Source: Cymodocea nodosa
Taxonomy: Eukaryota; Streptophyta; Magnoliopsida; Alismatales; Cymodoceaceae
Assembly: GCA_036874045.1 (NCBI GenBank)
Contig: CM072340.1
Coordinates: 2,743,001 to 2,807,000 of the forward strand
DNA length: 64,000 nucleotides
Direction of reading: 5' to 3'
In this document: piece by piece, positions 3,261-64,000 of the stretch
Numbering within the stretch: position 1 is the first letter of the stretch
How the letters are laid out: every line of letters begins with the position of its first letter
Notes under the pieces: model-generated
The model's input: only the letters and a program-made list of their open reading frames with translations
Told to the model about the DNA's origin: nothing
Databases searched by the model: none
Program-made: the position numbers and the translations under genes

Positions 3261-3271
3261 CTCTGATACCA
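3261..3271 (-). other. copia primer binding site (initiator Met-tRNA)
   Basis: On the minus strand this reads TGGTATCAGAG, the standard plant copia PBS pairing with the 3' end of initiator Met-tRNA. It lies two bases inside the LTR end at 3,274. Confidence 0.9.
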
Positions 3272-3273
3272 CT

Positions 3274-8196: not shown

Positions 8197-8209
8197 ATCA
8201 TCAGTAGTC

Positions 8210-12925: not shown

Positions 12926-13096
12926 TTATGTCTGTTACAATATGTCGTATACTTGTTGATAAATGTATATAATCAACAACATACACAGTTACAAATAGAA
13001 TATGATACTACCAATGTCTCACATATACAAATTTCAAAAATACAGGATGATTCTATTCCATAGACAGATATAGAACATTCTTTTATACAGAGACAG

Positions 13097-13903
13097 TTGT
13101 ATAGATCACATATAGATATACAGGTTGTTGATATACAAATTGTTATAGAGACTGTTGCTGCTGAAATGTTTCAAGAAGAAATTCAGCAGATTATTGATAC
13201 GACAATAACATATATTTCAAACATTTATACTAGTTTTGATAGAAATTCCACCAGTTCTGAAAGATCTGACAATATAGATGCTGCTGATAATATTGAAACA
13301 AGTCCCAGATCAGAACATCATGATAGGAAAATACCTAATCCTAAACAGAGTTTAGATGCAAATACACTATTATGGTTCAGAAATAATTCATATTATGACA
13401 AATTTCAGACATATAAAACTTTTACAGTTTTATATTCAAGACCAGTTAAGTTTGAAGGGATGGCACACATACGTGAACTATTTGAATTTCAAGACTTGTT
13501 GACTCTACTTCCACAACAGCCAGGCCATCTTGCTATACCCGAACTTCTCAGTTGTTTTTACTCAAACTTAATAGTGGAATAAGGTATTCATGTTTCTAAT
13601 ATACAAGAAAATGACATATATTTAACTCCAGATTTACTTCATCAGGTACTTGGTCTGAAAAATGGAGTTAAATTATCAGAAAGAAAACAGGTTTATCGAT
13701 TGGGATGGGACATTACAAGTTTAGCGAAAGATCCAACTACCAACAAACCATTGACATTACTAAATGACTTAAATGGCCAAACACATTTTATTGCAAAAAT
13801 ATTGTGTGCTACATTGTTTCAGAAGATTGGTCATGGGGCAGAAGTTGGCAGATGTTGTCTTTATGCTACATACGCATTAATCAACCATATACAGGTGAAC
13901 TAG
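13097..13903 (+). pseudogene. extra ORF downstream of copia pol, second part (plant transposon-protein-like)
   Basis: Two pieces, 13,097-13,582 and 13,700-13,903, separated by a stop and a frame that remains readable between them. The pattern of an FEGMAHIRELFEFQDLL block, LLSCFYSNLI and then LTPDLLHQVLGLKNGVKL resembles the domain often labelled putative plant transposon protein, found in many plant retroelement-associated ORFs. This is pattern recognition, not a search. It probably continues the ORF begun at 11,795. The following stretch (14,050-14,240) is rich in ACA/TACA triplets and degenerate. Confidence 0.45.
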
Positions 13904-43766: not shown

Positions 43767-46020
43767 GGTCGGAGTCTCCGCGTTGGAGATCCGAGAAATG
43801 GCCGATCGACCGTAGGATTGCCGGCTTACGGCGACGGTCCCAGCTTTCGACGGAAAGAAGAGAAACGGAGGACCGAGGAGCGCAGCAGAGAATGACTAAT
43901 ATTTTCTCTTGATTTTTGCTGATATATTCTAATGAAAAAAATGCAAATATAATCACAGTCTTTCCGGTTTCTCTTTTTGTATAACCCTCATTTGTCTTTG
44001 TGAATTATTTACAAAGATACTCGACCACGGTTTTTTTCGCTCTTTACTCTCATGACTACTCTTTATTCACAGTCTTCCTTGTCTTTTTAAATGACTTACG
44101 TAGATACTTGTTTCCTCTACCCCCAAGAATCACAACTCTCCCTTACTTCGTTTGTAACTATTTTTAGCACCCACAGCAGTAATTTTAAGAAGAAGAGGAT
44201 CATGAGAATGTCGGTCTTACATCCTTTTCAGATGTAGGTGCTCGACGAGGAGAGGAGAAGGTGCACCGAGCAGTGGCAAAAGTGGGGTGAGCATTTTGAG
44301 CAATCAAGAAAGGATCTTGAAGGTTAGGACAAGGCTCGTCAAAATTCTACGCAAAGATAATGGTGCTCTAAAAAATCTAGCGCCGGCACCTAATGTTGTT
44401 CATCAATACCATGAAGAGCAGTCAAGGATGATCTTGACGTAAGAGACCATCTTTATGGACCAAACCGTGTGGCTCGATCGCATCTATCGTGTATCCAACA
44501 GCTAGCTAGATATATGCATCGGGTCCGCCAAGGATCTTCATGCTTAGGGAATCATCCATTTGGGTTGTCAAATTTGTCAACATCTTGCTCAATGGCAATC
44601 ACGTCACAAAAATCGTAGACTTCCACTTCTTACGCCTCTTCTTAATAAGACTCAGCGTGCGCACCAACGTCAAGGAAAGCTTTGAATTACCTTGACTTAG
44701 AGTATTTCAAGATGTAATATTTCATTAATAAGAAAGAGAAAATGATGGTTGAAATTTAGACTCTATTTGTACCATTAGAAAAGTCAATTAAATTAAAAAC
44801 TTAAGAAAAATTTCCTAATGTTTTTAACTTTTATGTTAATTTATTCTCAACTTTCTTAAATATAAAAGAAAAAAAAATTTCAAATTTTGAACCTCTGAAA
44901 CTTTAGAAATCCTGCAACTTCTGCAAACTCGAGCTCCAACGTTATTGTCCTTTCCTTCTGAATCCCAATAGTGGCTAGCTGCGAAACTTCGATCATAGAG
45001 AATGGAGGCTTTCTGTGGTGATCCAAGGTGAGCTGTCTGTCGATGGTCATGACCGAGAAATAGGGGGTATGTGAACGACTGATGGTGGCTCTCCATGCGA
45101 GAACTACAATTGATTCACTCGAGAAGGTTGCGAAAGGACATGAATCGACGTCCGAGGCTTCCAAGCATGAGCGAAGGGTGAACATAGGAGGACTAGCTTG
45201 GTTGCCATAGTTGGAAAGGGCAACCAATACCAAAGAAGACGAGCATCTTAGGTGAAACTGTGTATTGATGGTTCAAGCTATAAAGAATAACACATATGCG
45301 CTGCAGAAGATGGCCTCCAAACTACCGCAAGGTCATCACCCTTCCAACACTACCTCCAAACCATTGTCGAGGTCATCATCGCCTTGTGTGCCACAAATGA
45401 AGGCACTATTCTTACCGATGTAGAGATCAACGAGGGCATAAATGATTGTAAATATAAGATAAATTTTTATTTGAATTAAACAGATATTGAATTAGTGATC
45501 CCTAATCTAAAGGACTTAAAATTTACTAATTTTCGTTAAATTTTAATCTTTGATTGATGATGACAAAATTATTATCAAAAAGATAAATGAAAAATACATA
45601 TCAATACAATTCAAATGCATTTGAAACTTGAAACATCAATGAATATTAGATTATGCTTTAAATTTATTAATTATATAAAAAAATTAATTATAAAAGTAAA
45701 ATAATTTTAAAAAACCATAATGAACATTTATCTTAAATATAACGTTACTAAATTAATTCTCCATGAGATGATTATTAGAGTCTCATTTTGTTGTTGTTTT
45801 CTTAAGTCTAATATATCTAAAATCTAACCAACGAACATAGTCTGTTGATAATAGGTTAAAAAATAAACTTACTCTATTGATTAGTTGGTTACCTGACAAA
45901 CTTACTAATTTTCTTAAGATAGACTTCGTTAATTGATGTTTGGGTGAATTTCGTTTGCTTATATATATGTTTATAGTATCTTTTTAGAGTAAACAAATAA
46001 TTTTCACAAATTAGATATTA
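43767..46020. other. PTH2 upstream region and intergenic DNA
   Basis: 43,767-43,900 is relatively GC-rich and probably holds the PTH2 5' UTR and promoter. The rest has short ORFs only (the longest, 45,233-44,880 on the minus strand, resembles nothing I know). Confidence 0.4.
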
Positions 46021-46026
46021 AATCTA

Positions 46027-47215
46027 ATTTATTTTTAACTGTAAGTGCATAGTGTCTATTGTATTTATATATAAGTATAAGTCGATCCTAGAGAAACTGA
46101 GTAAGAATTGTACACTATTTTAATTTTTACAACTAAAGTTTTATATGTGTTAAATTACACGCTCCGTTAACCTATTGGTAATTCAACAGACTTAGTTCAT
46201 GGAGTTACAATTAACTCAACGGAGTATCCTTGTAGACTTAAGTTAACTCTACGAGCATCATTAGTAACTTCCCATTAAATTTTGCTATTTACAAAGGAAT
46301 TCGACCATCCATTGGGTGGTTCCATAGAATGTAAATAACATTAATTAAGTTTTTTAATGTTAGTTTATCTGGTATTTATTATTAATCAATACTAGCATTC
46401 AGATATTTCAAATAGTAACTATTAAGATTTTGGGTAATCTGTACGAATCACTTTCAGTAATCAATAAAACTATTTTCTATTTTCTGAATCAAATAAACAT
46501 GAAATATTCATAATACTAACAATAATAACATTAATCACGATACAAAACAAACAATACAACACCTAAATGCTAACTATAAAAATAGATAATTAGTTTTGTT
46601 TTTGTTTTGATATGTTCTTGAAGATGAACGAAAGATGAAATGTAGAAATTCTCTCTTGATAGTAAAAACTTCCATCACTACATGTAATGCGATTACACCA
46701 CTGAAAACTTAATCACTTACAGTCATGCCTCTTCTCCCTATAGAATTGTGAATTGAGACTTGTAAGTTGATATCCTTTTCAACATATTGGCATCAACCTG
46801 AAATTAAGGTTAGAAGCTTTACAATCTCCTAAGATATGATTCAGTGCTTGATAAAAATGGTTTCCCTTCCTACGATGTGATCACTCTTCACAATGATTGT
46901 CAATCACTATGTTTGACTTGGAATTGACTTGCCATTTGAAAAGTATCCTTATAGACCTCCTATGGTTGGTGATTATGGTGGTGTTGTGGAGCTTCAAAGA
47001 ACCTCTAACACTTCTTATAGTTAGCATGGCTCTCCACTCACATCCCACCCTTTTTTCGTTCTTCTCATCTTCTTTTTATATTTCTTTCAATAGTAACTGC
47101 CTTTGACATAATGACTGGTTGGATCTCCTTCAATCGTATAAATGATGGTGATTTCTTCTTCATTCCACAAGTTAAATTCTACGTGATACATGCAATTGTG
47201 GTTTTCCTTCGAATT
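46027..47215 (-). repeat. old gypsy LTR fragment, antisense
   Basis: The reverse complement follows the Athila/Tat-like LTR from the GGAAGGAAAAACCACG block to the GACACTATGCAC block, equivalent to about 60,010-61,190. It includes a worn version of the hairpin cluster (46,160-46,260). It is much more diverged than the other LTRs, so it is an older insertion. Confidence 0.8.
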
Positions 47216-47228
47216 TCCTATTATTGCA

Positions 47229-47318
47229 TGTTGAGTATTATGTTTTGATAATATGTGCTAAATGAATGTAATCATATTTAATCAATTACTATTATTTGTG
47301 AAAGTAAATTTAGAACAT
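47229..47318 (+). repeat. copia LTR fragment, left part (split by gypsy copy B)
   Basis: It starts TGTTGAGTATTATG and follows the first 90 bp of the LTR at 61,409. It resumes after the gypsy element at 61,347. The joined pre-insertion site is colinear with the intact copia LTR. Confidence 0.85.
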
Positions 47319-49473
47319 TGTTTAGAATGAAAAAGTGCATATTATTAACAGTTAAATGATGGTTAATTGCATAATATTTAGCTTATCATATGAGAATTAA
47401 GCCATTATGTTATAATTGCACTATTATATGCTTTAATTGAAGAATCTACTTAATTTTGGGGAATTAATGTTAATTTAGTGCATTTATGAACTGTCGGTAA
47501 GTTGCAGGCTGTGAAATTCTTAGGTATTCGAATTTTCTAATATTTCGAATAGTTATGTTTAACATACCGAACAAATTCAGACAGTTATGTTTAATAGACA
47601 AAATATGTATCAGATAGTTATGTTTAAATTACCGAACAATTATGTTTAGAGATAATATTTTATTATTTCCAGATGTACATGTGTCGAAACCAGAATGAAT
47701 GTCTTAAGTGAATTTTCGGTGAGTTAGCTGTAACTATCCGAAAATGCATCTGAGCATCAGATAGTTATACTTGTAACTCTCCGAAATGTTATTTTATGTT
47801 TAAACTACCGTTGACACGTGTCGAGATCTGGTAGATTTACTTAAGTTATAACTCGTTAAGTTAGCATAACTATACGCGTTGAGTTACATGAATATACACT
47901 AAGGTAACATGTTATGTTAGCAGCTTATTTCTTTATTGCATGTATTTTATGCACGTGTTGAATTTAAATGCTTTAGAATATCACGTGAGATGCACATGTT
48001 TAACTCATTAAGTTAGTATAACTGCACGCATTGAGTTACATGAATATAAACTAAGGTAACGCGTTAGGTTAGCGGCTTATTTCTTTATTGCATGTATTTT
48101 ATAGTTATTTTCTAAAATGCCACTGTAGCGGTTGCAGGAACAGACAGTTGGAAGGAAAAACCACGTTTGCACGTATCATGCAGGAATTCAATCGCGCATG
48201 GAGAAGGAAGCATCGCCGTTGATCTAAAGGAAGGAAATCCAACTGATCATTCAAGCAGAAGTAGTTACTACTGAAGAAATATAAAAGAAAAGAAGAAAAG
48301 AAGAAAAGAAGAAGGTGTGATCGATGGACGACTAGTGTATACAGAGGAGGAGCATCGAGCTTTTTGTAGATAGTATTGGCGATTCTCTGAAGTATCACAC
48401 CAACCATCGTTATCACCACCATAATCACCAATCATCGGAGGTCTGTGAGGATACTTGCCTGATGTCAGGTCGATTCCGAGCCAAACACAGTGCTTGACAA
48501 CCACTGTGAGAAGTGATCGCATCGCGGGAAGGGAAGACATTTTCACTAAGTGTAGACTCATATTTCAGGAGATCGTAAAGCTTTTAGCCTTGGCTTCGGG
48601 TTGATGCTTATATGCTGAAGAGGAGATCATCTTGCAATTCTGGACTCGCGATTCTATAGGGAGAGGAGACAGAATTGTAAGTGGTTTAATTTTCAGTGGT
48701 GTAATCGCGTTGCAAGTAGTGTCAGAAGTATTTACTATCAAGTGAGATTACTTTACATTTCACCTTTCGCCCATTTCTATGTTCACATCAAAACAAAAAT
48801 ACCAAAACAATTTATCTTTGTTTATATGTTGTATTTGAGTGTTGTATCGTGATTAATGTTATCTGTATCAGTTTTATGATTGTTTTATGTTAGTTTTAAT
48901 TTTACAGTTTACTGAAATTGGTTCGTACAAAACACTTAAAGATTTTAATGGTGACTATTTGAATCATCTGAATGTTAGTATTGCTTAATGATAAATCCAA
49001 TGTTAACTAGCATTAAAAAGTTTAATTGATGTTATTTACAATCTATGGAATCGCCCAATGGTTGGCCGAATTCCTCTATAAATAGCAGTATTATAAAGAA
49101 GAGACAGGCTCGTGGAGTTAACTTAAGTCTACGAGGATAGTCCGTTGAGTTAGCCATAACTCAACGAACTAAGTTCGTTGAGTTAACTGTAACTCAACGA
49201 AGTGCTTATGGAATATAAATTTGAATTGTTCACAATCAAACATTTTTTAAATTCGTCAGCAATTCCCTATGGGATCGACCTGTACTTGCACACTAATACA
49301 ATAGACACTATGCACTTGTAGTTAAAGTACAAATTGGAATTAATATCTAAATTGTATTAAAGGTTGTTTGTTTACTTCTAAAAGAAAGAATAGACATAAA
49401 GATAAATTAACTAAGTAAAAATAGAAGTAACAAATCCAAGTTTTTCTAGTGTAATGTTGGGAAAACCTAAACA
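47319..49473 (+). repeat. 5' LTR of gypsy copy B
   Basis: 2,155 bp. U3 contains hairpins of the form TCGG-N-AGTTA / TAACT-N-CCGA (for example 47,717-47,741 and 47,757-47,782), CACGTG boxes and GTTAAGTTA repeats. The R/U5 side holds the CGTTGAGTTA hairpin cluster. By eye it differs from the 3' LTR by only a few bases per hundred. Confidence 0.95.
49109..49199 (+). repeat. hairpin cluster in 5' LTR
   Basis: Arms CTCGTGGA / TCTACGAG (49,109-49,135). Two perfect 10-bp stems CGTTGAGTTA / TAACTCAACG follow, with loops GCCA (49,143-49,166) and ACTG (49,176-49,199). Confidence 0.92.
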
Positions 49474-49480
49474 AGTTTTA

Positions 49481-49497
49481 TGGCGCCGTTGCTGGGG
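49481..49497 (+). other. primer binding site, tRNA-Asp type
   Basis: TGGCGCCGTTGCTGGGG, matching the complement of the 3' end of plant tRNA-Asp with one mismatch. This is the PBS usual for Athila-like elements. It lies 7 bases after the LTR end and is followed by a GAATT repeat (about 49,498-49,545). Confidence 0.9.
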
Positions 49498-49588
49498 AAT
49501 TGAATTGAATTGAGTCGAAGTGAATTGAATTGAATTGAATTAATATAAGTAACTGTTAGAGATGTTTCGTTTTAATAGCTAGAGTTGT

Positions 49589-50290
49589 GTGTTTTCTTTT
49601 GTAATTAAGAATATGGCATATGCTTATGCTCAAAGATTTCTGAAACCTTTAATTAGCATATGTGAATTCTGCAATTCTGAAGGACACGACATTTCTGATT
49701 GTTTGAAATTGAGACATTTACAGATTGTTAGATCCCATGAACAACAAATGAATTATCCTCAATATAATAGAGCCGAGTATGAGAATCCTATAGTTTACAT
49801 AACTGATGGTCAGTATAGAATGTGTAATATGATGAGAGACACTGAAGTTTGGGATAGCTATGACAGATTGGAGTATAGTATAGAGCAAAATCAGGATAAA
49901 CTGGAATACTTTGTGTGTCAACAACAAGAAGTCAATCGGTTAAACTATAAGGAGGCATATTCAGAACCTAAACAGGATATAATTTACGAAACTGAAAAAG
50001 TCATAAAGAAAATTGATCAAAAATTGAATGCAATGAAATTAGATGATCTGGAAACAAAATTAAAAGCATTAGACAAAAATGCAATGAAAATACAAGTTTT
50101 GCAACACGATAATGAAAATTATAATGTTATAAACCTACACAACTTGCAAAATATACAACAAACAGAAAACATTAATGTAAGAGAATTTAAAGAATGCACT
50201 TTAAAACTAAAAATAATTGAAGATCATAATCACAAAATGATATATAAAAATATCATGAAAGTAACGAAAATCTGGAAGATGTATGTGTAA
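49589..50290 (+). pseudogene. gag C-terminal part: zinc knuckle plus helical region
   Basis: Near the start is CEFCNSEGHDISDC, a CX2CX4HX4C knuckle. After it come Gln/Glu/Lys-rich helices, probably coiled coil (about residues 85-165). The capsid-type domain that should precede the knuckle in Athila/Tat gag is absent here and is found downstream of integrase. After the stop at 50,290 the coding sequence continues in another frame up to the protease (50,290-50,586), with a further stop, so the link to pol is broken. Confidence 0.75.
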
Positions 50291-50504
50291 CATTAAGATC
50301 TAGAACTGATATACCACCAAGAACTCAAAATGAAAATGATATGAAGGTGGACAAGAGTAAAAATCAAAATGATAATGAAAATGTAATAGCTGAAAATCTA
50401 GAAATCACTGAATAACAATCTAAATCTGCAATTGAAGCTAAAAATGATCAAACAAATCAACTGAAAGAAAAAGAATCTTTGAAATCAAAATCTTTAGCAC
50501 CCTA

Positions 50505-53500
50505 TCCTAAAAGATTACAACAAACAATTCCTGAAAAACAAGAAAAAATCAAAGAAATTTTTGAAAAAGTATAAGTTAACATTCCTTTGTTAGATCTATT
50601 GCAGAATATGCCACCTTGTGCTAAACTTCTGAAGGATTGGTGTACTAAGAAAAAGGAGCGAAAAGTTCTTAGAAAGGTCTTTTTAGCTAAGCAAAGTAGT
50701 TCCCTATTTCTGCCACAAATTCCTAAAAAGTTATCTGATCTTGGAATCCCTGTTATATCATGCACCATAGGAAATACCATTCTAGAAAGAATCTTAATAG
50801 ACTTAGGTGCAGGTATAAATGTTATGCCAAGTGATATATTTGCATCCTTAGGATTAGAAGGCTTAACTCCTACTAGTACAGTTATTCAATTAGCTAATAA
50901 AAGTATAAGATATCCTAGAGGAAAAATAGAGGATGTCTTAATTAAAATCAAGAATTTTATATATCCTATTGATATTGTAATTTTGGATTCCCAACAAATT
51001 AAGCATAAAAATAGTGATACATCTTTAATTTTAGGAAGGCCATTTTTAGCAACATCAGGGGTTGTTATAAATTGTAAAACTGGAGTAATGAAGTTAGCAT
51101 ATGGTAATGAGGATACTCAATTAAATATTTTCAAACCAGAAAGGTTTGAGGAGTTAGAAATGTCCTTACATACCATAGACTTTTTAGAGGATGAAGGAGA
51201 TATGTTAGATGATGTGATTCAAGAAGAATTCAATGGTCAAATCAATTCTGAAACTTTAGAAGAAAGTGAAAGCATAAATATAGAAGGAGATCGGGAAGAA
51301 ATTAATTTAAAAAATGATGATGTTTAATTAGGAGCTCTAGCTTCTAATGGGCAGCATTTAGAGTTAAAACTTTTACCTCCTGAATTAACCTATATATTTC
51401 TGGAAGATAAACGGACTTGTCCAATTATTATTGCTTCAGATTTGAAAAAGGATCAAATAGCCTAATCCATGTAGTTCCTAAGAAATCAGGATTAACTGTT
51501 ATTAGGAATGAAAGTCAAGACTTGATAACTACTAGAATTCAATCAGGTTGGAGAGTATGTATAGACTATTGAAAGCTGAATGCTGTGACTAGGAAAGATC
51601 ATTTTCCCTTACCTTTTATAGTTCAAATGCTGGAAAGATTAGTAGGGCAAAAATATTTTTGTTTCCTAGATGGGTATTCAGGGTATAATCAAATTCCAAT
51701 AGCTTTAGAAGATCAAGAGAAAACAACTTTCACCTGTCCTAATGGAACTTATGCTTTTAAAAGAATGCCATTCGGATTATGCAATGCGCTAGCTACCTTT
51801 CAAAGGTGTGTGCAGGGCATATTTACTAGAATGATTGAAGAATTTTTAGAAATATTTATGGATGATTTTATTGTATATGGTAACTCATATGAAGTGTGTT
51901 TAAGCAATTTAGACCAAATATTAAAACGCTGTGTGGAAAAAAATCTGGTTTTAAATTGGGAAAAATGTCACTTCATGGTTAAACAAGGAATAGTCTTAGG
52001 GCATGTTGTTTCTAAAAAAGGGTTGGAAGTAGATAAAGCTAAAATAGAAGTAATTTCTAATCTACCAGAACCTAAATCAGTAAAAGATATTAGATCATTT
52101 CTAGGACATGCTGGTTTTTATAGAAGATTTATTAAAGACTTTAGCAAGATAGCTAGACCTTTAACTAGTCTATTAAAAGATGTTCCATTTAACTTTGATA
52201 AAAATTGCAAGGAATCATTTTTCAGATTTAAGACTAGCTTAATTTCAACTCCTATAATTCAAGCACCTAATTGGAACCATCCATTTGAATTAATGTGCGA
52301 TGCTTCTGATTTTTGCTGTAGGAGTAGTGTTAGGACAGAAGATAGAAAAATCTCCTAGAGTGATTCATTATGCAAGCAAAACCTTAAAATGATGCTCAAG
52401 TTAATTACACAACTACTGAAAAAGAATTATTAGCTGTTGTGTTTGCTTTAGAAAAGTTTTAGATCATATCTGATTGGAGCTAAAGTAATAGTATACACGG
52501 ATCATTCAACTCTAAAACATCTAATAAAGAAAAAAGAAACTAAACCTAGATTGATCCGATGAATATTATTATTGCAAGAATTTGATTTAGAAATTAAAGA
52601 TAAAAAATGTTGTGAGAATGTAGTAGCAGATCATTTATCAAGATTACAAATAGAAAAATCAAATATTGAAATTAAGGATAATTTTCCTGATGAATAATTA
52701 ATGACCATCAACACAATGCCTTGGTATGTAGACATAGTTAATTACTTAGTTACTGGTTTAACACCTAAGGATTGGAATAGACAGGATAAGAAATTATTTT
52801 TCTCAAGAGTAAAAATATTACTATTGGGAATAACCCTTACTTATTTAAGAAATGTCCTGATCTGGTTTTAAGGAGGTGTGTTCCAGAAACTGAATATTCG
52901 AGCATATTGTCTTTCTATCATGACCAACCTTGTGGAGGACATTTTGGTTTAGGGAAAACTACTGCAAAAATTCTACAATGTGGGTTTTATTGGCCAACAC
53001 TATTCAAAGATGCTCATAAATATTGCTTAAGTTGTTTAAGATGTCAACAAATAGGAAGAATATCAAAGAGGAATATGATGCCTCTTAATCCTATTGTTGA
53101 GGTTGAAATCTTTGATGTGTGGGGAATAGATTTTATGGGTCCATTTCCTATGTCTAATCAATTTAATTACATATTGTTGGGGGTGGATTATGTATCTAAA
53201 TGGATAGAAGCTATTCCTACAAAAACTAATGATAACAAAGTGGTAATACAATTTATAAGAACAAATATATTTGCTAGATTTGGAATACCTAAAGCTATTA
53301 TTAGTGATAAAGGAACTCATTTCTATAATAGAAGTTTTGAAGCCTTAATGAAGAAATATGGAGTAAACCACAAAATTGCAACATCATATCATCTGCAAAC
53401 AAGTGATCAAGTAGAAAGTGCAAACAAAGAAATTAAATTAATCTTGGAAAAAGTAGTAAATCCTACTAGAACAGATTGGGCTAATAGATTGATAGATGCA

Positions 53501-54025
53501 CTTTGGGCTTATAGAACTACTTATAAAACGAGCTTAGGTATGTCACCTTTTAGGCTAGTATATGGAAAAAGTTGTTATTTACCTGCTGAAATATAACATA
53601 AAGCTTATTGGGCATTAAAAACTCTGAACACTAATTTAAATCAAGCTGCTGAAAATAGGAAAATGCAACTAATTGTATTAGAAGAATTTAGAAATGAAGC
53701 TTATTCGAAGACTGTAAGAGAAAAAGAGAAAATTAAATTCTAGCATGATAGAAAAATTATTCCTAAAAGCTTTGAAATAGGGCAAGAAGTATATCTTTAT
53801 CTAGCTAGACTCCATAACCATCCAGGAAAATTAAGATCTAGATGGGCAGGACCTTACATAGTTCGAAATGTTTATCCTTATGGAGCTATTGAAATTGAAA
53901 ATCCTAAAAATCAGAATATATTTAAAGTAAATGGACAAAGACTTAAATCTATTCTGAAAACACTAAAAAGCTCCTTTGGAATTATAGAAGAAGTCAGAGT
54001 AGAGGACTACTCAAGCTTTACTTAG
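50505..54025 (+). pseudogene. gypsy pol: protease, RT, RNase H, integrase
   Basis: Protease (50,587-51,327): PVISCTIGN then DLGAGINVMPSDIFASLG and LILGRPFLATSG, the Athila/Tat pattern. RT (about 51,450-52,300): KDHFPLPFIVQMLERL, CFLDGYSGYNQIPI, MPFGLCNALATFQR and the active site EIFMDDFIVYG. RNase H (52,310-52,680): [11 protein letters not shown] and DHLSRLQ, spread over three frames. Integrase: zinc-binding YHDQPCGGHFG ... CLSCLRCQ, then core blocks GIDFMGPFP, ISDKGTHF and ESANKEIK (DDE complete), and a C-terminal part to the stop at 54,023. Breaks: Arg CGA to TGA near 51,571, frameshifts near 52,313, 52,388 and 52,460, and stops at 53,594-53,596 and about 53,742. Confidence 0.93.
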
Positions 54026-54156
54026 TAAGAAATCAATTTTTATGCTTATATATATATGTTTAAAAAAAAAAAATTTAAAAATATATATAAAACATAAAAA
54101 TAGTTGCAGTTCAACCGACTGGATCCATCGGTATGACTGGAACATTAAAAAAAAGT

Positions 54157-54416
54157 TGTATATTAATTTTCAAAAAAAAATATTGGTTTTACCGAAACAT
54201 AATATCGGTCCAACCGAAAGAAAAATAAAAAAATAAAAAATATTTCGGTCTGATCGAAGCATAGTATCAGTTAAATTGGTAAAAAAAAATTGTATATTAA
54301 TTTTCAGAAAAAAATATTGGTTTTACCGAAACATAGTATCGGTTCAACCAAAAGAAAAATAAAAAATATTTAGGTATGACTGAAGCATAGTATCGGTTAA
54401 ACCGGTAAAAAAACAG
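54157..54416 (+). repeat. 134-bp tandem duplication
   Basis: Two units starting TGTATATTAATTTTC at 54,157 and 54,291. Each contains two GTATCGGTTNAACC-like elements and TTGGTTTTACCGAAACATA. Confidence 0.85.
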
Positions 54417-54470
54417 AAAAACTATTCTCTGTAATATTTTTATTATTATATTTGCTTGTACGGGGAGTCC

Positions 54471-54560
54471 ATTGAGTTACGCTTAACTCAACGAGCATAC
54501 TTCGTTAAGTCTTGAGTTAGTCAACGAGCTTATTCCGTTGAGTTAACTGTAACTCAACAG
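54471..54560 (+). repeat. hairpin cluster in pol-gag spacer, first
   Basis: Stem ATTGAGTTA / TAACTCAAC with loop CGCT (54,471-54,492), a worn middle repeat, and CGTTGAGTTA / TAACTCAAC with loop ACTG (54,536-54,558). Same consensus as the LTR cluster. Confidence 0.88.
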
Positions 54561-55085
54561 AGTACTGTAGCTAAGACCTAAAATTAGAAAAACTCCAGAA
54601 GGAAGTAGATGAATTTAGGCATAGAGATTAAATTGTATTGTTCGTCTACTTGTGTAAAATTGTATGAAATTGTATGGTGTACTTGTAATGTAATTGATTC
54701 ATATTAATGAATATAATTTTTCAGATGCAATTTTCATACGTATTTGGATGTGAAATGAATGGAATTTATTGAATATTATGTAATTTGTGGAACTTTATGA
54801 ATATGTAACAGATTTACAATTTGCTGAATGATAGGATAACTAAAAAATTTTTGCATGTTATAAGGTAAAATGTAAATTTTGCATAACGTAAAATGATCTG
54901 CAAGTTAAATCTTTATATAATGTTCAGATTTAAATATATTTTAATCAAAATGAGGCATTAATGACATAGATTTAACTTTATTACAATTAGCAGAATGAAA
55001 AACAAAGAAAAAAAAAAAAACAGAATAGAAAACTTACGAGAGTGAAACTTAGATGTTGCCAAGTGTTAACTCAACGAAGTAAGTC

Positions 55086-55226
55086 CGTTGAGTTAACAAT
55101 AACTCCACGAGGTCCGTAATATAATATAAGGTCACTCCGTTGAGTTATTTGTAACTCAACGAAGTCAGTCCGTGGAGTTAGCAACAGTAACCTACTGTGT
55201 TCTGTTGAGTAATCTGTAACTCAATG
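55086..55226 (+). repeat. hairpin cluster in pol-gag spacer, second
   Basis: Three stems: CGTTGAGTTA / TAACTCCACG (55,086-55,109), a perfect CGTTGAGTTA / TAACTCAACG with loop TTTG (55,138-55,161), and TGTTGAGTAA / TAACTCAATG-type (55,203-55,226). They sit just upstream of the gag-like region. Confidence 0.88.
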
Positions 55227-55305
55227 AGGTTAGTTTGTGGATTAAGCAGAACAGTTATTTTTTTAACCACAAACGAAACTTCGTCGGTTTAGCGGTTACC
55301 AAAAT

Positions 55306-56812
55306 TTGAAATTAGTAGTGGTACACGTACCCATAAAAATAGGAACCATGATGCACGTTGCAAGCCACGTTCTTGCAATGAGATTTATTCACTTTATGGA
55401 TGTGCAGTATATATATGAAACAAAATGTTATTTACGAGTTACTAGCATTTTTAAAAGAAAGGAGAAAGCGTTGGAGGAACTGGAAGGAGAAGCAGCTGAT
55501 TCAACCTTCATCCGACAACAAATTTTTATAGAATGGAAAGCTTCAGACTGGTATGTAATTAATCTTCTGCTATTTATTTATGAGCACATGGACTCGTTCT
55601 CTAAGCACTAAATGATTAGTAAGAACACCTACCTAGGAATTTTTATTGCAGAGGAGTACTGAAAAATTTTCTGAACTAAACTTTAACGAAATTCTTTGGG
55701 GTGTAGCTGACCTTTCTTTAAAAGAGAACGTAGAGATGATTGCTCTAGTAGAAAAACCATTAGGAGAGATTCTGTATCCTGAATTAATTGATGAACCTTC
55801 ATGTATTCGATTGCCAAATTTTGAGGGAGATAGGTTTGAACTGAAATCTAATTATATTAGTTAATTGCCACATTTTCATGGATTAGAAAGAGAGGATGCC
55901 TATTTCTTCCTTAAAGAATTTAACGAAGTTTGTCAAATGATGAGAATGCCGAACATGAGTATAGATGCTATTAAACTTAGATATATCCCTTTTGCTTTAA
56001 AAGATACAGCTAAGAGATGGTTATATACTCTGTCGCCTGATTCAATTTCTACATGGACTGAATTTTGCTATATTTTTTTGGAAAAATACTATCCAACACA
56101 TCAAACGATTAAAAAGAAGAAAGAAATATTAATGTGTAGCCAAAAATAGGGTGAATCATTTTGGAAATATTTTGAAAGATTTAAAGATTTACTGACTCAA
56201 TGTCCACATCATGCAATGAGTAAAGCACAATTAATAGGCATAATTTATGAAGGCATAGATGTTTCAATGAAATCTTTATTAGAATCTACTTGTCAAAATG
56301 GATTTTTAAAATTATGTAGTAAAGAAGCATGGGCGTATTTAGAAAATTTTGCAAAAAGAACTACACAGTGGGAAAATTCGGCTGAAGCTATTGCAGATAA
56401 AAGATTATTGCCAAGAGGAATGCATGAAATAGATTTCAATACTATGCTTGAGGTGAAATTAAATGAATTAACAAAGAAAATAGAAGAGTTATCATTAAAT
56501 CAAAAGCTAGCAGAAAAGAATACAAACATAAATGACTTAGATATTATTTATGCTAGAAACCAGAGAGAACTTGGGAAATTCTTATAATCCTAATTGGAGA
56601 AATCACCCGAATTTATCTTGGAGAAACAACAATTTCCACACTTAGATAGAAGGAACCAATGGAAGTTAGACCTACTAGAGGATTGCCAATACAAGCTATA
56701 CCTAATCCTGTCAATAGAATGGTTAATGAAATTGATACCTCTTCTAGGAGGGCAGTTGAATGAAGCAGCATATCTGAAGCAACTATCTGTATGTATATAT
56801 GTTTTATTTTAA
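55306..56812 (+). pseudogene. Retrotrans_gag (capsid-type) region located downstream of pol
   Basis: A leading ORF (55,306-55,611) is followed by a possible intron (55,551 to about 55,653) and then the Athila/Tat gag core: LPHFHGLEREDAYFFLKEF, LRYIPFALKDTAKRWLYTL, WKYFERFKDLLTQCPHH, AYLENFAKRTTQWE. The tail has the NPNWRNHPNLSWRNN motif in a shifted frame (56,586-56,640). Stops at 55,862-55,864, 56,147-56,149 and 56,585-56,587 plus a frameshift break it. The zinc knuckle that normally sits between the core and the NPNWRNHPN motif is missing here; the only knuckle of the element is upstream of pol. It was either moved here or came from a second element. Confidence 0.85.
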
Positions 56813-56942
56813 GTTAATAGTATCGTAGAGTTAATTTTTAACTCAACGAACTTAGTCTGTTGAGTTATGCCTTAACTCCACGAGGGTGTGCAGTAGTTAT
56901 GTTAATTTTTGTCTCTACTAAATTTTTGTTTTTATTTTACAG
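56789..56942 (+). other. possible intron linking gag and F-box
   Basis: Donor ATCT|GTATGT and acceptor TTTATTTTACAG|AATCG, both phase 0. Removing it joins the frame 56,594-56,788 to the F-box frame. A hairpin pair (56,824-56,882) lies inside it. Prediction only. Confidence 0.45.
56824..56882 (+). repeat. hairpin pair between gag and F-box
   Basis: CGTAGAGTTA / TAACTCAACG with loop ATTTT (56,824-56,848) and CTGTTGAGTTA / TAACTCCACGAG-type (56,857-56,882). Confidence 0.85.
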
Positions 56943-56951
56943 AATCGACAA

Positions 56952-58091
56952 ATGGAATTAATGCAATTACCGTTGGATGCACTAAGGGAAATACTAAGTA
57001 ACATGTCAGCTAAAGATCTGTGCAAGCTGTGTTGTGTATCAAAGGAAATTAAATACTGTATTGAAGAAAAATATTTTCAGGGACTACAAGCTGCAAAAAT
57101 GACTAAGATTAGAGATGGATTCATATGGAGGTCATTTAATCGTAGTTTAAATACCCATAAATATCTGGCTATGTAAGAAACTACTGGAATTCCACCCAAT
57201 GCATTAGAAGGAATGAGTCATATTATGGGGATAGATGAAGGATTAATCATAAACAAGACGAGACCAAAGCATGCAAGTTTATCATTACCTGATATTTTGA
57301 TAAGAAATCCTATAATAGGAGAAGAATGGAATATATGAAGACCTAATAGATTTGAAGCACCAACTGTAAATTGTGGGTCAACTTTAATATTTTTTGATAA
57401 AAATTCTACAATTTCTGAAAAATTATATTATTGGAGACCTATAGGAAATTGGGGTGAAGATTTATGCTTAAGTATGTATAATTTTCTGAACAGATCTTGG
57501 AATGAAAACATTATAATATATCTAGGACAGAAATCATTAATTAACCAAACACATGTCATACTTAATAGATATATCTATTTAGTCACGGAGATATCATTAG
57601 CATATGGATCTGATTTATACATAGTGAGCATAGACAGTTATGATGATTATATAGAAATTTTACCTGTATCGAGTGAAATAGCTAAACCACCATCTGTAGA
57701 ATTTAATGAAATTCAAATAGGAATGTGGTATAATGAAGAAGATGATCCTACTTTATGTCTGATAAGATGGTGGGATGAATTGATGAAATTTCAAATATGG
57801 ATTGTGGAAGACATGAATGAATGGAAGTGGGAAGAGGAGTATATTGAAATAGAGGTAGAAATAGAAACTGCTACATTACCTTGGAACCAAAAAGGATCCC
57901 TTTCTGCATTACATATCATTAATGGTAATACACTCGTATTTGGAATTTATAATATATTGCATGTTTACAAATTAAAAAGGAACAAGAACTGCATTAAAAC
58001 AGAATTAATAGTAAGAAGAACTATGCCTAAAAAGTTTGTTTGGACTGATACATTTATTCCATTTGTTTCTACTTTTCAATCATGTTCTTAA
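56952..58091 (+). pseudogene. F-box protein gene carried by the gypsy element
   Basis: One frame of 380 codons with only two stops (TAA 57,174-57,176; TGA 57,336-57,338) and no frameshift, better kept than pol. Residues 1-45 form an F-box: MQLPLDALREILSNMSAKDL, then CKLCCVSKEIKYCI. In cellular F-box proteins this part binds SKP1 in an SCF ubiquitin ligase. The C-terminal two thirds have repeated Trp- and Leu/Ile-rich beta-strand segments (ILPVSSEI, GMWYNEEDDPTLCLIRWWDE, FQIWIVEDMNEWKWEEEY, LHIINGNTLVFGIYN), resembling the F-box-associated/propeller region of plant FBA proteins. Position is that of env, after gag and before the PPT. Probably captured from the host; the same 3' end in gypsy copy A shows it spread with the family. 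Confidence 0.82.
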
Positions 58092-59188
58092 GCTGTGATT
58101 TTGTGTGTTTAACGTGTGTATTCTGCATTTATTTTTAGAAAAAAAAAAGGAATTTTGAAGTTTTTGATGTTCATTTTATAAAAAAAAAAACAAACAAAAC
58201 AAAATATCAATCTAGTTTGTTGGTATCTATTCTGGGAAACCAATTGGCTTGCTTGTGAGCCACCAAAGGCATAGGAGCCTAGGTTCCACACAAGACACTG
58301 ATTTATTAATATCTGTTAAATGTTATTTTGTTTTATATTCTGTATTTATTTGGGAATGAAAAGTTTTTCAGAATCAAAAATCGGAATATACAGAAAGAGA
58401 TACAAATGAACCAAGGTATGTAACCAATTACTTATCCTGAATTTTAAATCAAACAAAACTTTATTCATGCTTACTACAATTACTGTACTTATTGTCAAAT
58501 CTTTTACATTGAGGACAATGCAAAATGTAGGTATGGGGGGGAGGTAATTAAAGTAACACCCATGTAAGTTTGTTAATTAAAGGAATTAAAATGGTACTGC
58601 AAAGTTTTGAGGAAATTTAAAATTTTATGAACTTGCTGTAACTTTCCAATAATTGAGACTGTAAAATTTTTATAGTACACAAAAAAAAAGAAAAAAGAAA
58701 AAAACATATACTGTTCTGAAAAGATACAAGTGTTTTGTGAAATACAGATATCTTATGAATCGAGTATATTTTCTGTTATCTAGAATTACTGAAATATGAA
58801 TCTAGAATTGACTTTTGAAGTTGTTTAATGGAAATACAATTCTTTATTCTACTTGTCTTAATCAGATTGAATTGGATTGTACTTTGATTCGTATGTTGTT
58901 GAAATTTCTTCTAGAAAACTTATTGGAAAATTCAGGATTACAGATGATGAAAAGAAGAACAAACGATAATATAATTAACACCTATATGAAGATGATATAC
59001 TTTGTATGTAATTTACATATATTCTAAATATCTTTGCAGGTTGATTACTAAAACATACAGAATATATGTTTATGCTAAACAGAAGAAAAAAAAACAAAAG
59101 GGAAAAGATTAATTCTAGCACTTTTTGAAAGACCAATTAATTAGATCTTAGTTTGCTAAGGGACTAGCAAAATTTAGGTATGGGGAAG
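58092..59188 (+). other. 3' non-coding region with two polypurine tracts
   Basis: A first G-rich tract (AGGTATGGGGGGGAGG, about 58,531-58,546) follows TTGAGGACAATGCAAAATGT, the context usual for Athila PPTs. A second (TTTAGGTATGGGGAAG, 59,173-59,188) abuts the LTR and is the functional PPT. The ~600 bp between them is non-coding. Confidence 0.8.
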
Positions 59189-61341
59189 TGTTTAGAATGA
59201 AAAAGTGCATATTATTAACAGTTAAATGATGGTTAATTGCATAATATTTAGCTTATCATATGAGAATTAAGCCATTATGTTATAATTGCACTGTTATATG
59301 CTTTAATTGAAGAATCTACTTAATTTTGGGGAATTAACGTTAATTTAGTATATTTATGAACTGTCGGTAAGTTGCAAGCTGTGAAATTCTTAAGTATCCG
59401 AATTTTCTGATATTTCAAACAGTTATGTTTAACGTACCGAACAAATTCAGATAGTTATGTTTAATAGACCGAATATGTATCAGATAGTTATGTTTAAATT
59501 GCCGAACAGTTATGTTTAGAGAGAATATTTTATTATTTCCAGATGTATATGTGTCGAAACCAGAATGAATGTCTTAAGTGAATTTTCGGTGAGTTAGCTG
59601 TAACTATCCGAAAATGCATCTGAGCATCGGATAGTTATACTTGTAACTCTCCAAAATGTTATTTTATGTTTAAACTGCTGCTGACACGTGTCGAGATATG
59701 GTAGATTTACTTAAGTTATAACTCGTTAAGTTAGCATAACTGTACGCGTTGAGTTACATGAATATACACTAAGGTAACACGTTATGTTAGCGACTTATTT
59801 CTTTATTGCATGTATTTTATGCACGTGTTGAATTTAAATGCTTTAGAATATCACGTGAGATGCACATGTTTAACTCGTTAAGTTAGTATAACTGCACGCG
59901 TTGAGTTACATGAATATACACTAAGGTAACATTTTAGGTTAGCGGCTTATTTCTTTATTGCATGTATTTTATAGTTACTTTCTAAAATGCCACTGTAGCG
60001 GTTGCAGGAATAGACAGTTGGAAGGAAAAACCACGTTTGCATGTATCACGTAGGAATTCAATCGCGCATGGAGAAGGAAGCATCGCCATTGATCTAAAGG
60101 AAGGAAATCCAACCGATCATTCAAGCAGAAGCAGTTACTACTGAAGAAATATAAAAGAAAAGAAGAAAAAAAGGTGTGATCGATGGACAACCAATGTATA
60201 CAGAGGAGGAGCACCGAGCTTTTTGCAGACAGTATCGATGATTCTCCGAAGTATCACACCAACCATCATTATCACCACCATAATCACCAATCATCAGCGG
60301 TCTATGAGGATACTTGACTGATGTCGAGTCGATTCCAAGCCAAACACAGTGCCTGACAACCACTATGAGGAGTGATCGCGTCGTGGGAAGGGAAGACATT
60401 TTCACCAAGCGTCGACTTATATTTCAAGAGATCGTAAAGCTTTTAGCCTTGGCTTCGGGTTGATGCCTGTATGCTGAAGAGGAGATCATCTTGCAATTCT
60501 GGACTCGCGATTCTATAGGGAGAGGAGACAGAATTGTAAGTGGTTTAATTTTCAGTGGAGTAATCGCGTTGCAAGTAGTGTCGAAAGTATTTACTGTCAA
60601 GTGAGATTACTTTACATTTCACCTTTTACCCATTTCCATGTTCACATCAAAACAAAAATACCAAAAACAATTTATCTTTGTTTGTATGTTGTATTTGAGT
60701 ATTGTATTATTTGTGTTGTATCGTGATTAATGTTATATGTATCAGTTTTATGATTATTTTATGTTAGTTTTAATTTTACAGTTTACTGAAATTGGTTCGT
60801 ACAAAAAACTTAAAGATTTTAATGGTGACTGTTTGAATCATCTGAATGTTAGTATTGCTTAATGATAAATCCAATGTTAACTAGCATTAAAAAGTTTAAT
60901 TGATGTTATTTACAATTTATGGAATCGCCTAATGGTTGGCCGAATTCCTCTGTAAATAGTAGTATTATAAAGAAGAGACAAGCTCGTGGAGTTAACTTAA
61001 GTCCACGAGGATAGTCCGTTGAGTTAGCTATAACTCAATGAACTTAATCCGTTGAGTTAACTCAATGGAGTGCTTATGGAATATAAATTTGAATTGTTCA
61101 CAATCAAGCATTTCTTAAATTCGTCAGCAATTCCCTATGGGATCGACCTGTACTTGCACACTGATACAATAGACACTATGCACTTGCAGTTAAAGTACAA
61201 ATTGGAATTAATATCTAAATTGTATTAAAGGTTGTTTGTTTACTTCTAAAAGAAAGAATAGGCATAAAGATAAATTAACTAAGTAAAAATAGAAGTAACA
61301 AATCCAAGTTTTTCTAGTGTAGTGCTGGGAAAACCCAAACA
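59189..61341 (+). repeat. 3' LTR of gypsy copy B
   Basis: 2,153 bp, colinear with 47,319-49,473. The hairpin cluster (60,983-61,070) is intact except for the third hairpin, which has lost its loop and reads as a continuous palindrome CCGTTGAGTTAACTCAATGG. Confidence 0.95.
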
Positions 61342-61346
61342 AACAT

Positions 61347-61408
61347 CAACTAATACAGAAAAAGTTTACTGATATAAATACTGTCCATAATAGATCTAAA
61401 ATTATGCT
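61347..61408 (+). repeat. copia LTR fragment, right part
   Basis: Continuation of the fragment at 47,229-47,318 (CAACTAATACAGAAAAAG onward), cut off where the next copia LTR starts at 61,409. The younger copia therefore seems to have inserted into an older LTR of its own family, about 150 bp from its start. Confidence 0.8.
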
Positions 61409-62989
61409 TGTTGAGTATTTTTGTTTTGATGATGTGTGCTGAATGAAAATAATCATATTTGCTCAATTACTATTGCTTGTGAAAAGAAATTAAAATCATC
61501 AATTAATACAGAAAAAGCTTACTGATATAAATAATTGTCTGTATTGGATCTGAAGTTAATATCTAGTCGTTTCGTTGCATTAATTTCTCATTTAGCTAAA
61601 CGTTAAGTTAACGTGTGTTTTTATTGAAAGGCATGATATGTTTTAATGTTATATCTTCTGTATCATGAACAGTGCACGTTTAGACAACTCGTTAAGTTAG
61701 AGTTTTGTTTGTATAGAGGTCACGTGAGAACTCGTTAAGTTAGAGGCTTAAAGGTTAAAATAGGTCACGTGATAACTTGTTAAGTTAGTGAGTAAAAGAA
61801 GAGACGAACTCGTTAAGTTAGTGTTATACACGTGGTGAAATTATAAGTTATGAATGTTGTATTGTATCACGTGAGGTGCACATGTTTAACTCGTTAAGTT
61901 AACATAACTAAACGCGTTGAGTTGCTATATTGAACACTAAGGCAACACGTTAGGTTAGCGTTATAAACTTAAGTTGTTATTTTTGCACGTGGTAATATTC
62001 TTATTATAAAAACATTTGTTTATTACTAGTTCGTTGAGTTATCATAACACAACGGAGATGGTTCATTGAGATAGCATAACACCACAGACTTAGTTCGTTG
62101 AGTTAGCTACAGTACTTGTCACATGAAATGGCACATGAGGAACTCGTTAAGTTAGAAACATTAAGTTATATATATACTTGTGTTACTCGTTTAGTTAACA
62201 TTAAAGTAACGACTTCTTATTACACTGATGAAAAACTTTTGGACGAGAAAGTTTATTTCGCAGGAAATTTTTCAGAGATCCAAGACTGATGATTAAAGGA
62301 AATTCGAAATATAAACGTGGGGTAGAACGTGTGTGTTTCGATGAAGGAAAAAGAAAAGACGTGGAGAAGTGGAAAACTAGTAGTGGTTAAACGTGAAGGA
62401 TATGCATGAAATAAAGATACAGTATAAAAGGCATAGAATTCTCATTGATCAATTTATTCTTGCACACAAAATGAAAAATCTTTTCAAGGATCAAACCATC
62501 CCTGCACACCAAAAGAAAAATCTTTTTCAAGGATTAATAACACCTTCTCGAGGAAAATCTCTCAAGTGGAAGAAAGTTCAGTGAAGCATAAAAAGGTAAG
62601 ATTTTCGTCACTGAAGATTTGAAGTATCAGAAGAAAGCAAATTCGGTGAAGCATGAAAAGACAAGATATTCGTCACTGAAGAATTGCTGAAGAAGAAAAA
62701 GAAGAAGAAGAAAGATCTCAAACAGAGAGAAAAGTTTTAAATTCTATAAATTAGTTTTCTCTATTTGTAGTTATGAAATTGTTTAGATGATATATGGTAT
62801 CGAAATATAATTGCATCTACAATTTCTGAGGAGAATTGAATTGTATATTGTAATTGAAACCTTGAATAAAAATGATTTTATGAAAACAATGTCTCGACTT
62901 GTTTTTGAGTTTTAAAGTTTCAATTATATTTCAGAAAATATTAAAAATACACAATTCACCTCCCTCTTGTGTAGCCATACAATCCTACA
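61409..62989 (+). repeat. copia 5' LTR (1,581 bp)
   Basis: It starts TGTTGAGTATTTTTG and ends AATCCTACA. It contains a module array of G-boxes and CTCGTTAAGTTA (61,688-62,154) and a degenerate CGTTGAGTTA hairpin region (62,030-62,105). An ~85-bp stretch (about 61,905-61,990) is nearly identical to the gypsy LTR of copy A. Confidence 0.93.
61688..62154 (+). promoter_or_regulatory. array of CACGTG boxes alternating with CTCGTTAAGTTA
   Basis: CACGTG at 61,721, 61,766, 61,829, 61,868 and 61,986. CTCGTTAAGTTA or one-mismatch copies at 61,688, 61,731, 61,776, 61,809, 61,890 and 62,143. CACGTG is the plant G-box/ABRE core bound by bZIP and bHLH factors. A stress- or hormone-responsive U3 is an inference. 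Confidence 0.75.
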
Positions 62990-62991
62990 AG

Positions 62992-63003
62992 TGGTATCAG
63001 ATC
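62992..63003 (+). other. copia primer binding site
   Basis: TGGTATCAGATC, two bases after the LTR end, pairs with initiator Met-tRNA with its last bases worn. Confidence 0.9.
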
Positions 63004-63189
63004 TTTGTGAATAATCTTTGATATAAAATCGATACCAACTTATTTAATATCATTGCTTATTCTACCTTCCTTGTTTTTAAATGGAAATTAATATCTGAGC
63101 ATATGTTTAACTCTATTGATTTAAGGCTCAAGTTGTTTTAAAGTTTTTAGACTGTTTAAAATCAAATAGGTTGAAAAATCTAAGGTAAA

Positions 63190-64000
63190 ATGGCTACTGG
63201 AAATGGTAATTTTTCTTTATATGAAGGCCAAAATTTTAATCGTCCTCCTTTATTTGATGGAATACATTTTGAATATTGGAAATATAGGATGACTGTTTTT
63301 CTTCAAAGTATAGATCATAAATTGTGGTTCATGATTTCTAAACCATATTCTCCGTTAACTACTCCTCATAATACTTGGACAATTACTGAAAAGGAAAATG
63401 AAACTGTGAATGCTAATGGCTTAAATATTTTATTTTCTGCATTGAGTTATGAACAGTTCAGTAAAGTGTCGGCATATAAATCTGTTTATGAGGTGTGGCA
63501 TGCATTAGAAGTTTCACATGAAGGTAGTTCTCAAGTTAAAGAGACAAAAATAAACATGTTGATTCATAAGTATGAACTCTTTAAGATGCATGAAGACGAA
63601 AATATTTCTGAGATGTTTTCCAGATTTCTTGATATCATAAACTCTTTAAAATGTTTAGTAAAGAATTTTGAACAGAAGGATTTGGTGAGGAAAATTCTCA
63701 GATCCCTAAGTTATAAATGGTCTTAGAAAGTAACATCAATTGAGGAATCACGAGATTTAAATGTTTATACTATGAATGAACTTATAGGAAATTTAATAGC
63801 TTATGAAGTTCAATTAAATGAATCATTGAGTCACAACAAACTGAAAATGAAGAAAGAAATAGCCTTCGAAATTAATTCAGATTCTGATATATCTACTGAT
63901 TCTGACGAGAATTTGATTTTGCTGACTAGGAAATTCAAGAAAGCATGGAAAGCTAGGAAACAGCAAAGGAACAAAAATGATAAACCCTCAACGTCAAAAT
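63190..64000 (+). pseudogene. copia gag, broken, continues past window
   Basis: Starts MATGNGNFSLYEGQNFNRPP, then GIHFEYWKYRMTVFLQSIDH and a UBN2-like helical domain. A TAG at 63,724-63,726 replaces the Gln codon present in the copy at 1-3,500; after it the frame stays open to the window end with an Asp/Ser-rich acidic stretch (about 63,870-63,915). The stop at the equivalent of 2,806 in the other copy is a sense codon here, so the two copies decayed separately. Confidence 0.88.

Follow-up and report, generated by a model that had tools for sequence, protein, structure and literature searches.

The question raised by the locus described here is whether a long terminal repeat (LTR) retrotransposon can carry its gag gene behind its integrase and, if so, how that order arose and how such an element might still assemble its particles. 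A gag-first order is generally regarded as a constant of LTR retrotransposons and retroviruses alike, because the Gag-Pol fusion both determines the Gag:Pol ratio and brings Pol into the particle. The locus lies at positions 47319-61341 of the window, the term used here for the whole 64,000-nucleotide stretch of Cymodocea nodosa DNA that was analysed. The window has a GC content of 31.7% and comes from contig C12 of the 374.6 Mb, 28-contig assembly on which all genome-wide counts are based. The element found there appears to belong to a host-resident Ty3/Gypsy lineage in which gag has moved behind integrase, with Pol left as a stand-alone protein bearing a zinc knuckle of its own and Gag as a separate product. 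We put the probability of this reading at roughly three in four.

Architecture of the Element

A single LTR element fills 47319-61341, with the target-site duplication (TSD) AACAT on either side (47314-47318 and 61342-61346). Its LTRs are direct repeats of the TG...CA type, the 5' LTR covering 47319-49473 (2155 bp, with a TATA-like box at 49077-49084) and the 3' LTR 59189-61341 (2153 bp). The primer binding site (PBS), tggcgccgttgctgggga, is found at 49481-49498, with a like site after the 5' LTR side in loci L045 and L065, and the polypurine tract (PPT) at 59171-59188, with a comparable tract before the 3' LTR in a related subfamily, S7. Between these signals, all on the plus strand, the order is knuckle, protease (PR), reverse transcriptase (RT), RNase H (RH), integrase (INT), spacer, gag, F-box gene, PPT, and 3' LTR. 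The element is filed with the Ty3/Gypsy LTR retrotransposons by the order of its pol domains, INT standing after RT and RH both here and in S7, but it fails the gag-first feature of that group. The original prediction had placed a knuckle upstream and the gag core after INT within this one AACAT-flanked LTR pair, and its coordinates are exact.

The first open reading frame (ORF) after the PBS (49613-50287) starts with a methionine at 49613, the sole in-frame one upstream, and bears the CCHC knuckle CEFCNSEGHDISDC 16 residues on, with no gag core. A piece with the letters LRSRT (50248-50412) was taken by eye as the equivalent of the LRSGK motif, which in canonical relatives stands between the gag tail and PR. 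It is followed by PR (50575-51324; PF13650, 1.1e-5), by RT with the start of RH (51573-52355; PF00078, 2.1e-25), and by RH pieces with frameshifts and stops (52388-52694; PF17917/PF17919 on 52388-52459). INT occupies 52790-54022, with H2C2 and rve (PF00665, 7.6e-14) on 52790-53593 and C-terminal pieces assigned by eye up to 54022.

After the INT-gag spacer (54023-55636) comes the gag capsid core (55637-56584; PF03732), which is matched as Retrotrans_gag in two ORF pieces (4.6e-8 and 8.6e-6) and is broken in this copy by two in-frame stops. The part of gag with the motif NPNWRNHPN (56541-56642) lies in another frame than the core. As predicted, no knuckle stands between core and motif in the window copy. 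This copy is decayed, with stops and frameshifts in its coding parts, and is without about 234 nt of RT near 51461, present in L041 and L043; in its gag tail a further stretch of about 158 nt, which other copies have after the NPNWRNHPN motif, is missing. These two gaps, the F-box domain, and the 3'-only copy at 3501-8203 formed no part of the original prediction. Its LTRs are 93.6% identical across 2171 columns, a Kimura two-parameter (K2P) distance of 0.052, which corresponds to about 2.0 million years at a rate of 1.3e-8 per site and year, or 3.7 million years at 7e-9.

Recurrence of the Gene Order

When gag (55637-56650) was used as a genome query, the matches listed from 3881 first-look candidates held the query itself and 39 others at 97% identity. 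Thirty loci of family F, the family of the window element, were read with about 1.5 kb on each side, the window copy included. The INT-gag spacer stands upstream of gag in 29 of them (the exception is L012), and in three (L015, L028, and L031) gag has an open frame of 423-454 codons. Three further copies, on C19, C23, and C1, were read in pieces on both sides and keep the window order of LTR, knuckle-ORF region, PR, RT, spacer, gag, F-box, 3' region, and LTR; INT was matched in two of them, the C19 copy being without INT and most of RT. The original prediction had allowed for a one-off event should no other copy show pol followed by gag, but such copies are found at dozens of loci, and chance is therefore excluded. 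A single-copy chimera is ruled out by at least 39 further gag loci and by the recurring order. It might still be proposed that a neighbour's gag fragment landed in the window copy by rearrangement or nested insertion, given that the surroundings hold several truncated and inverted elements and that the copy is decayed. Against this stand the same order at dozens of loci, a near-constant distance from PR to gag, and the single TSD that encloses the whole unit, and we give the proposal next to no credence.

The order extends well beyond family F. By eye and tree, the loci read were assigned to seven subfamilies, F and S2 to S7. At the eight best loci for the Pfam gag model, from 150 listed, which share 65-68% DNA identity with family F where matched, INT coding sequence stands just before gag in every case. 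Subfamilies S3-S6 are 42-54% identical to S2 in matches to the 5' ORF, a list that does not include F and S7. A CX2CX4HX4C knuckle starts 15 of the 17 5'-ORF regions read, with all seven subfamilies represented, and no gag core or WRNHPN was seen in these ORFs. In 12 of the 15 an in-frame methionine lies 14-22 residues ahead of the knuckle; in the remaining three it lies at 13 (L050), the piece starts inside the lead (L057), or the region is broken (L064). Canonical elements could have gone unnoticed at loci where the S2 query matches only beyond residue 100; four such loci, L049-L052, were picked for this reason, and all four have the knuckle.

Counts of gene order tell the same story. The matches listed gave 216 gag places (from 150 and 67) and 235 places for the 5' ORF or PR (from 114 and 123), and for 61 of the gag places there is a PR place no more than 8 kb away. 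Gag lies downstream of PR on the same strand at 59 of these 61, at a median distance of 3799 bp, with 53 falling between 3600 and 4100 bp, so that here, as in the window, the gag-before-protease feature of Ty3/Gypsy elements is absent. At none of the 61 is gag upstream of PR on the same strand; the other two are nearest to an opposite-strand PR, and one of these (C14:15531980), going by its listed coordinates, has in addition a same-strand PR 3787 bp upstream. Copies of family F, for which no PR query was used, are among the 155 gag places left unpaired. For S4, two places outside the gag lists were examined for gag at a distance of about 3.85 kb beyond PR, and it was present at both, with the end of INT immediately upstream in L063.

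These counts also bear on the idea that the downstream gag is a second gag, and that the elements are non-autonomous and use the Gag-Pol of canonical elements elsewhere in the genome. A separation of Gag from Pol would be tolerable if canonical elements supplied both, and a rare canonical family could lie outside the matches listed. Yet none of the 216 listed gag places has a PR within the 2 kb that follow it, no gag-pol fusion was seen in the loci read or among the matches listed, and S7 has open frames for both pol and gag, as described below. The canonical gag and PR protein P0003, taken from another plant and used as a query, gave 67 listed places from 12198 candidates, and all 67 matches end at residues 417-443, short of LRSGK (454) and without continuing into PR. 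Neither these matches nor the pairing of PR with gag supports dependence on canonical partners, which we consider very improbable.

A second host for the layout was sought among the public relatives of the S2 5' ORF. Nine of the 120 listed, from 1448, have a knuckle; eight of these carry WRNHPN by pattern, and in the ninth, P0098, a comparable motif was recognised by eye after the knuckle and ahead of PR. No second host with the knuckle-first layout thus appears among the 120.

Copies with Open Frames

In contrast to the decayed window copy, some copies of S7 retain long open frames. At one S7 locus a PBS is found with a single frame of 1491 codons that runs from the methionine and knuckle at its start to the C-terminus of INT, with Pfam matches to RT (1.1e-28), RNase H (1.6e-35), and rve (2.6e-19). 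By the match table, a gag frame of 454 codons without a stop lies behind pol at the same locus; the S7 gag that was read letter by letter is that of L064, another copy, whose pol is broken. More broadly, 16 of the 123 listed S7 matches to the 5' ORF fall in frames of at least 1450 codons with no stop within the match, and 17 of the 67 listed gag matches, not all of them from S7, are without a stop. The LTRs of the open-frame locus differ at 4 of 1536 sites, a figure that is not a clean measure of age since the locus is part of a tandem remnant. As a separate observation, one S7 element has, after gag and ahead of its 3' LTR, antisense frames that by eye resemble a Copia integrase or pol fragment (L067:3-674, minus strand).

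Origin of the Downstream gag

The original proposal was either a split of gag with relocation of the N-terminal half, or a 3' half taken from a second element by template switching. The first of these is not supported, as the downstream gag of S2, S4, S5, and S7 has core and knuckle together (and WRNHPN where read), the 5' ORF of these same four bearing a second knuckle. The downstream gag of F and S3 has no knuckle, and that of S6 has frame breaks at the expected position. By eye, the gag N-terminus of S3, S4, S6, and S7 (methionine, a few residues, then W-x-R) resembles that of the public canonical gags P0001-P0004, and the gag tail of S2, S4, S5, and S7 ends shortly past a (P/T)NPR stretch, which in P0003 directly precedes LRSGK. 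With both its N-terminus and its tail resembling canonical ones, what moved looks like a complete gag. The missing knuckle of the family F gag looks like a later loss, and the gag knuckle was probably lost twice because S2, which has it, is sister to S3, which does not (98/91), and S7, which has it, branches before F, which does not (92/89).

Trees were built for gag and PR, each with nine rows of our own and about 20 public proteins, six of which are common to both. All nine of our rows fall into a single clade of the gag tree (99/98), within the group of P0001-P0006 (100/100). In the PR tree they lie on one side of a branch (100/99), with P0003 adjoining. The picture is unchanged when S7 is left out. 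P0003 is thus near the lineage in both trees, and P0001, P0002, P0004, and P0006, near it in the gag tree, have no PR for comparison. The joint placement near P0003 does not favour a 3' half from an unrelated element, and neither does the INT-gag spacer, which holds no PBS in the four subfamilies scanned (S7, S2, S4, and F) and, in the first three of these, no match to the LTR; the scan for internal LTR or PBS remnants found in the family F spacer only hairpin repeats like the R region.

The simplest reading would be a single move of gag within one lineage. In this model, the complete gag, from its start codon to just before LRSGK, would have moved once, early in the lineage, from before PR to behind INT. 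A possible route would be a deletion from a tandem LTR-gag-pol-LTR-gag-pol-LTR, which would give LTR-pol-gag-LTR; the tandem remnant of S7 exists, yet no PBS is left in the spacers scanned. The template-switch proposal, in which the 3' half from gag to LTR came from a second element and the resulting chimera then spread, could account for the R-like hairpins of the family F spacer and for the presence of a knuckle both upstream and downstream in S2, S4, S5, and S7, which looks like the trace of two former gag regions. It also gains from P0005, a protein with both gag and PR whose gag places it close to the lineage, whereas its PR groups with P0020 and P0029. Such a switch may have been one between close relatives or, given the tandem remnant of S7, between two copies of one element in tandem. 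The position of P0003 in both trees and the spacers free of PBS and LTR matches speak against it, and we regard it as unlikely.

Proposed Expression and Packaging

With a single move of gag as the starting point, the remaining 5' end would have become a stand-alone Pol ORF of methionine, short lead, CCHC knuckle, and PR-RT-RH-INT, which would be translated as the first ORF of the full-length RNA. As gag is far from the cap and not fused to pol, Gag would need an mRNA of its own, from splicing or an internal start. We propose that Gag, and in family F also the F-box protein, would be translated from a separate, probably spliced, 3' mRNA; such separate expression is plausible. Without a Gag-Pol fusion, Pol would also need another way into the particle, and by analogy with foamy viruses it may be packaged through binding of the genomic RNA, aided by its own knuckle. 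In F and S3, the two families that probably lost the gag knuckle later, the pol knuckle would be the sole one left. The full scheme, of a Pol that is first and independent with a knuckle for RNA-guided packaging, a Gag made late from its own mRNA, and, in one family, an F-box protein that perhaps acts on host silencing or protein turnover, seems to us evenly poised between right and wrong. Copies also have splice-site-like letters in common, but recent common descent would give the same result and no weight was placed on them.

The hairpin repeats raise a different possibility. A motif of CGTTGAGTTA, loop, and TAACTCAACG, perfect or near-perfect, stands right after the TATA-like box of the LTR (49143-49201), and hairpin-like repeats recur at 54474-54566, 55067-55161, and 56839-56880, before gag and before the F-box gene. 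A scan of 45000-64000 with Rfam gave no match; the repeats could act as an RNA signal or a regulatory repeat. Their position after the TATA-like box and again before both downstream genes would suit a model in which the order is real but Gag is expressed from a promoter inside the element rather than by splicing, with the R-like repeats taking part. However, similarity between the LTR or leader and the INT-gag spacer was not found in S2, S4, or S7, and promoter calls are weak in AT-rich DNA, which leaves an internal promoter a rather doubtful alternative to the spliced mRNA.

The spacer itself varies in length. A block of up to 2.3 kb is present in L041 and L039 and absent from the window copy and L043 (on C1); in L041, where some 2.3 kb is added at the point corresponding to 54578-54582, it codes (L041:5790-7988) for a coiled coil and for a domain of weak similarity to PF20167 (8.6e-7; 29.5 bits, below the cut-off of 45). 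Elsewhere in the window, ORFs at 12236-13582 resemble this extra-ORF protein by eye (LLWFRNNSYYDKFQTYKTF...) and perhaps belong to a non-autonomous relative.

The F-box Gene

The gene that follows gag (56952-58088, plus strand) encodes an F-box protein (PF00646, 5.5e-11) and has two in-frame stops in the window copy, its frame of 389 codons being open in other copies. With the 389-residue frame of L044 as the query at least 106 genome matches were found, and 33 of those listed are without an internal stop; a homologue search with the fragment 57339-58088 found none. F-box follows gag in 28 of the 30 family F loci read, and the gene may be regarded as an added accessory gene in most copies of the family, perhaps derived from the host.

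Evidence on the Other Side

A number of observations weigh against the move of gag, or against the function proposed for its products. Two concern how complete the elements are: an LTR pair around the unit is seen for F and S7 only, the order in S2-S6 being adjacency of pol and gag (the S2 copy searched for an LTR pair has within it a nested insertion of a window-like element, and in the S3 copy no pair was found), and the S7 open-frame locus has no TSD, with the same 271 bp and PPT before its 5' LTR as before its 3' LTR. Exceptions to the layout also occur. No 5' knuckle could be found in L043 (F) or in L047 (S3, decayed), knuckle and PR are in different frames in L051, the F-box is missing from L013 and L016, and L033 has an LTR followed by spacer and gag with no pol between. 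The listed matches of P0003 are gag matches only; they show that none of the best of these continues into PR, and are not an exhaustive survey for canonical elements. Among the trees, the split in PR is unrooted, with long branches and a public sample of the size given above, and the shift of P0005 between gag and PR belongs here as well. The acceptor-like sites before gag were chosen by eye without a control and are suggestive only. Finally, selection appears weak: the pooled ratio of nonsynonymous to synonymous substitutions (dN/dS) in family F is 0.80 for gag and 0.86 for F-box, differences in these genes are most frequent at codon position 1 and least frequent at position 3, a pattern not expected of a gene under constraint, and in the F-box gene of the window copy the nonsynonymous proportion (pN, 0.0516) exceeds the synonymous (pS, 0.0329).

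Surroundings of the Element

Further mobile DNA surrounds the element. Immediately before the 5' LTR there is an older, inverted LTR-like stretch (45959-47213), about 71% like the LTR of the element. A second copy of family F, consisting of the 3' part only, lies at 3501-8203, with pieces 85-97% identical to 57958-61348, and ends abruptly at 3501 beside a Copia-like element in minus orientation. Copia-type stretches at 62968-64000 and 2263-3295 stand in opposite orientations with 96% identity over 1033 bp, and an ORF within the former (63184-63723) matches Retrotran_gag_2. A 1.6 kb stretch is present as a side-by-side duplicate, with 74% identity, at 38367-42371.

Comparison with Known Systems

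Among known systems, a close likeness is to the Athila/Tat (OTA) elements of plants, with which the lineage shares the PR-RT-RH-INT order, a PBS of the TGGCGCC type, and a gag with Retrotrans_gag core, CCHC knuckle, and NPxWRNHPN; LRSGK stands before PR as in public relatives, and the extra ORF of L041, weakly like PF20167, is a further resemblance. It differs in that gag is behind INT, pol opens with its own knuckle, and no gag-pol fusion is seen, the series of knuckle, NPxWRNHPN, LRSGK, and PR being spread over two ORFs rather than held in one reading unit. Two public plant proteins, P0003 and P0005 (the latter from Tasmannia lanceolata), belong to the canonical relatives that come nearest in gag (38% and 49% identity, respectively), and P0003 does so in PR as well. 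In both, however, a single protein holds gag, LRSG, and PR in the usual order, with a knuckle in P0003 only. A published survey gives the order GAG-PROT-RT-RH-INT for its 8453 Ty3/gypsy polyproteins (PMC6317226), and annotation rules based upon it would rate the present elements as lacking gag or as rearranged.

Additional coding sequence ahead of the 3' LTR and after pol is shared with Retand, Grande, and the env-like genes of Athila (PMC7264820, PMC11963269). As described there, such ORFs supplement the usual gag-pol order, and the review of extra ORFs places gag first (PMC7264820), whereas in the present lineage it is gag that holds the downstream position, with an F-box gene carried as well; the term F-box was not found on a search of that review. 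As a lead, the F-box protein may also be likened to polerovirus P0, an F-box-like silencing suppressor of some plant viruses (PMC6593998), in that each belongs to a genetic parasite of plants and bears an F-box-like motif. Searches of the open literature on the gene order and on F-box carriage, mostly by exact phrases, listed no account of a gag gene that follows integrase, an absence that is only weakly shown.

A lineage with reversed order and open frames would show that ratio setting and Pol delivery can be achieved in another way, and would give a direct test of the role of a pol-borne knuckle; it is found at well over a hundred listed places in one genome, though not each of these was read. 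In foamy viruses, gag still lies ahead of pol. Foamy-virus Pol is made without Gag sequences from a spliced mRNA, and its packaging requires genomic RNA (PMC3705302). In the elements described here a Pol without Gag sequences, packaged by way of genomic RNA, is likewise proposed, a role that a knuckle at the start of pol would suit, and it is the downstream gene, Gag, rather than Pol, that would come from the spliced message. If the proposed reading is true, these elements would represent the retrotransposon counterpart of the foamy-virus strategy, with the order of the genes reversed.

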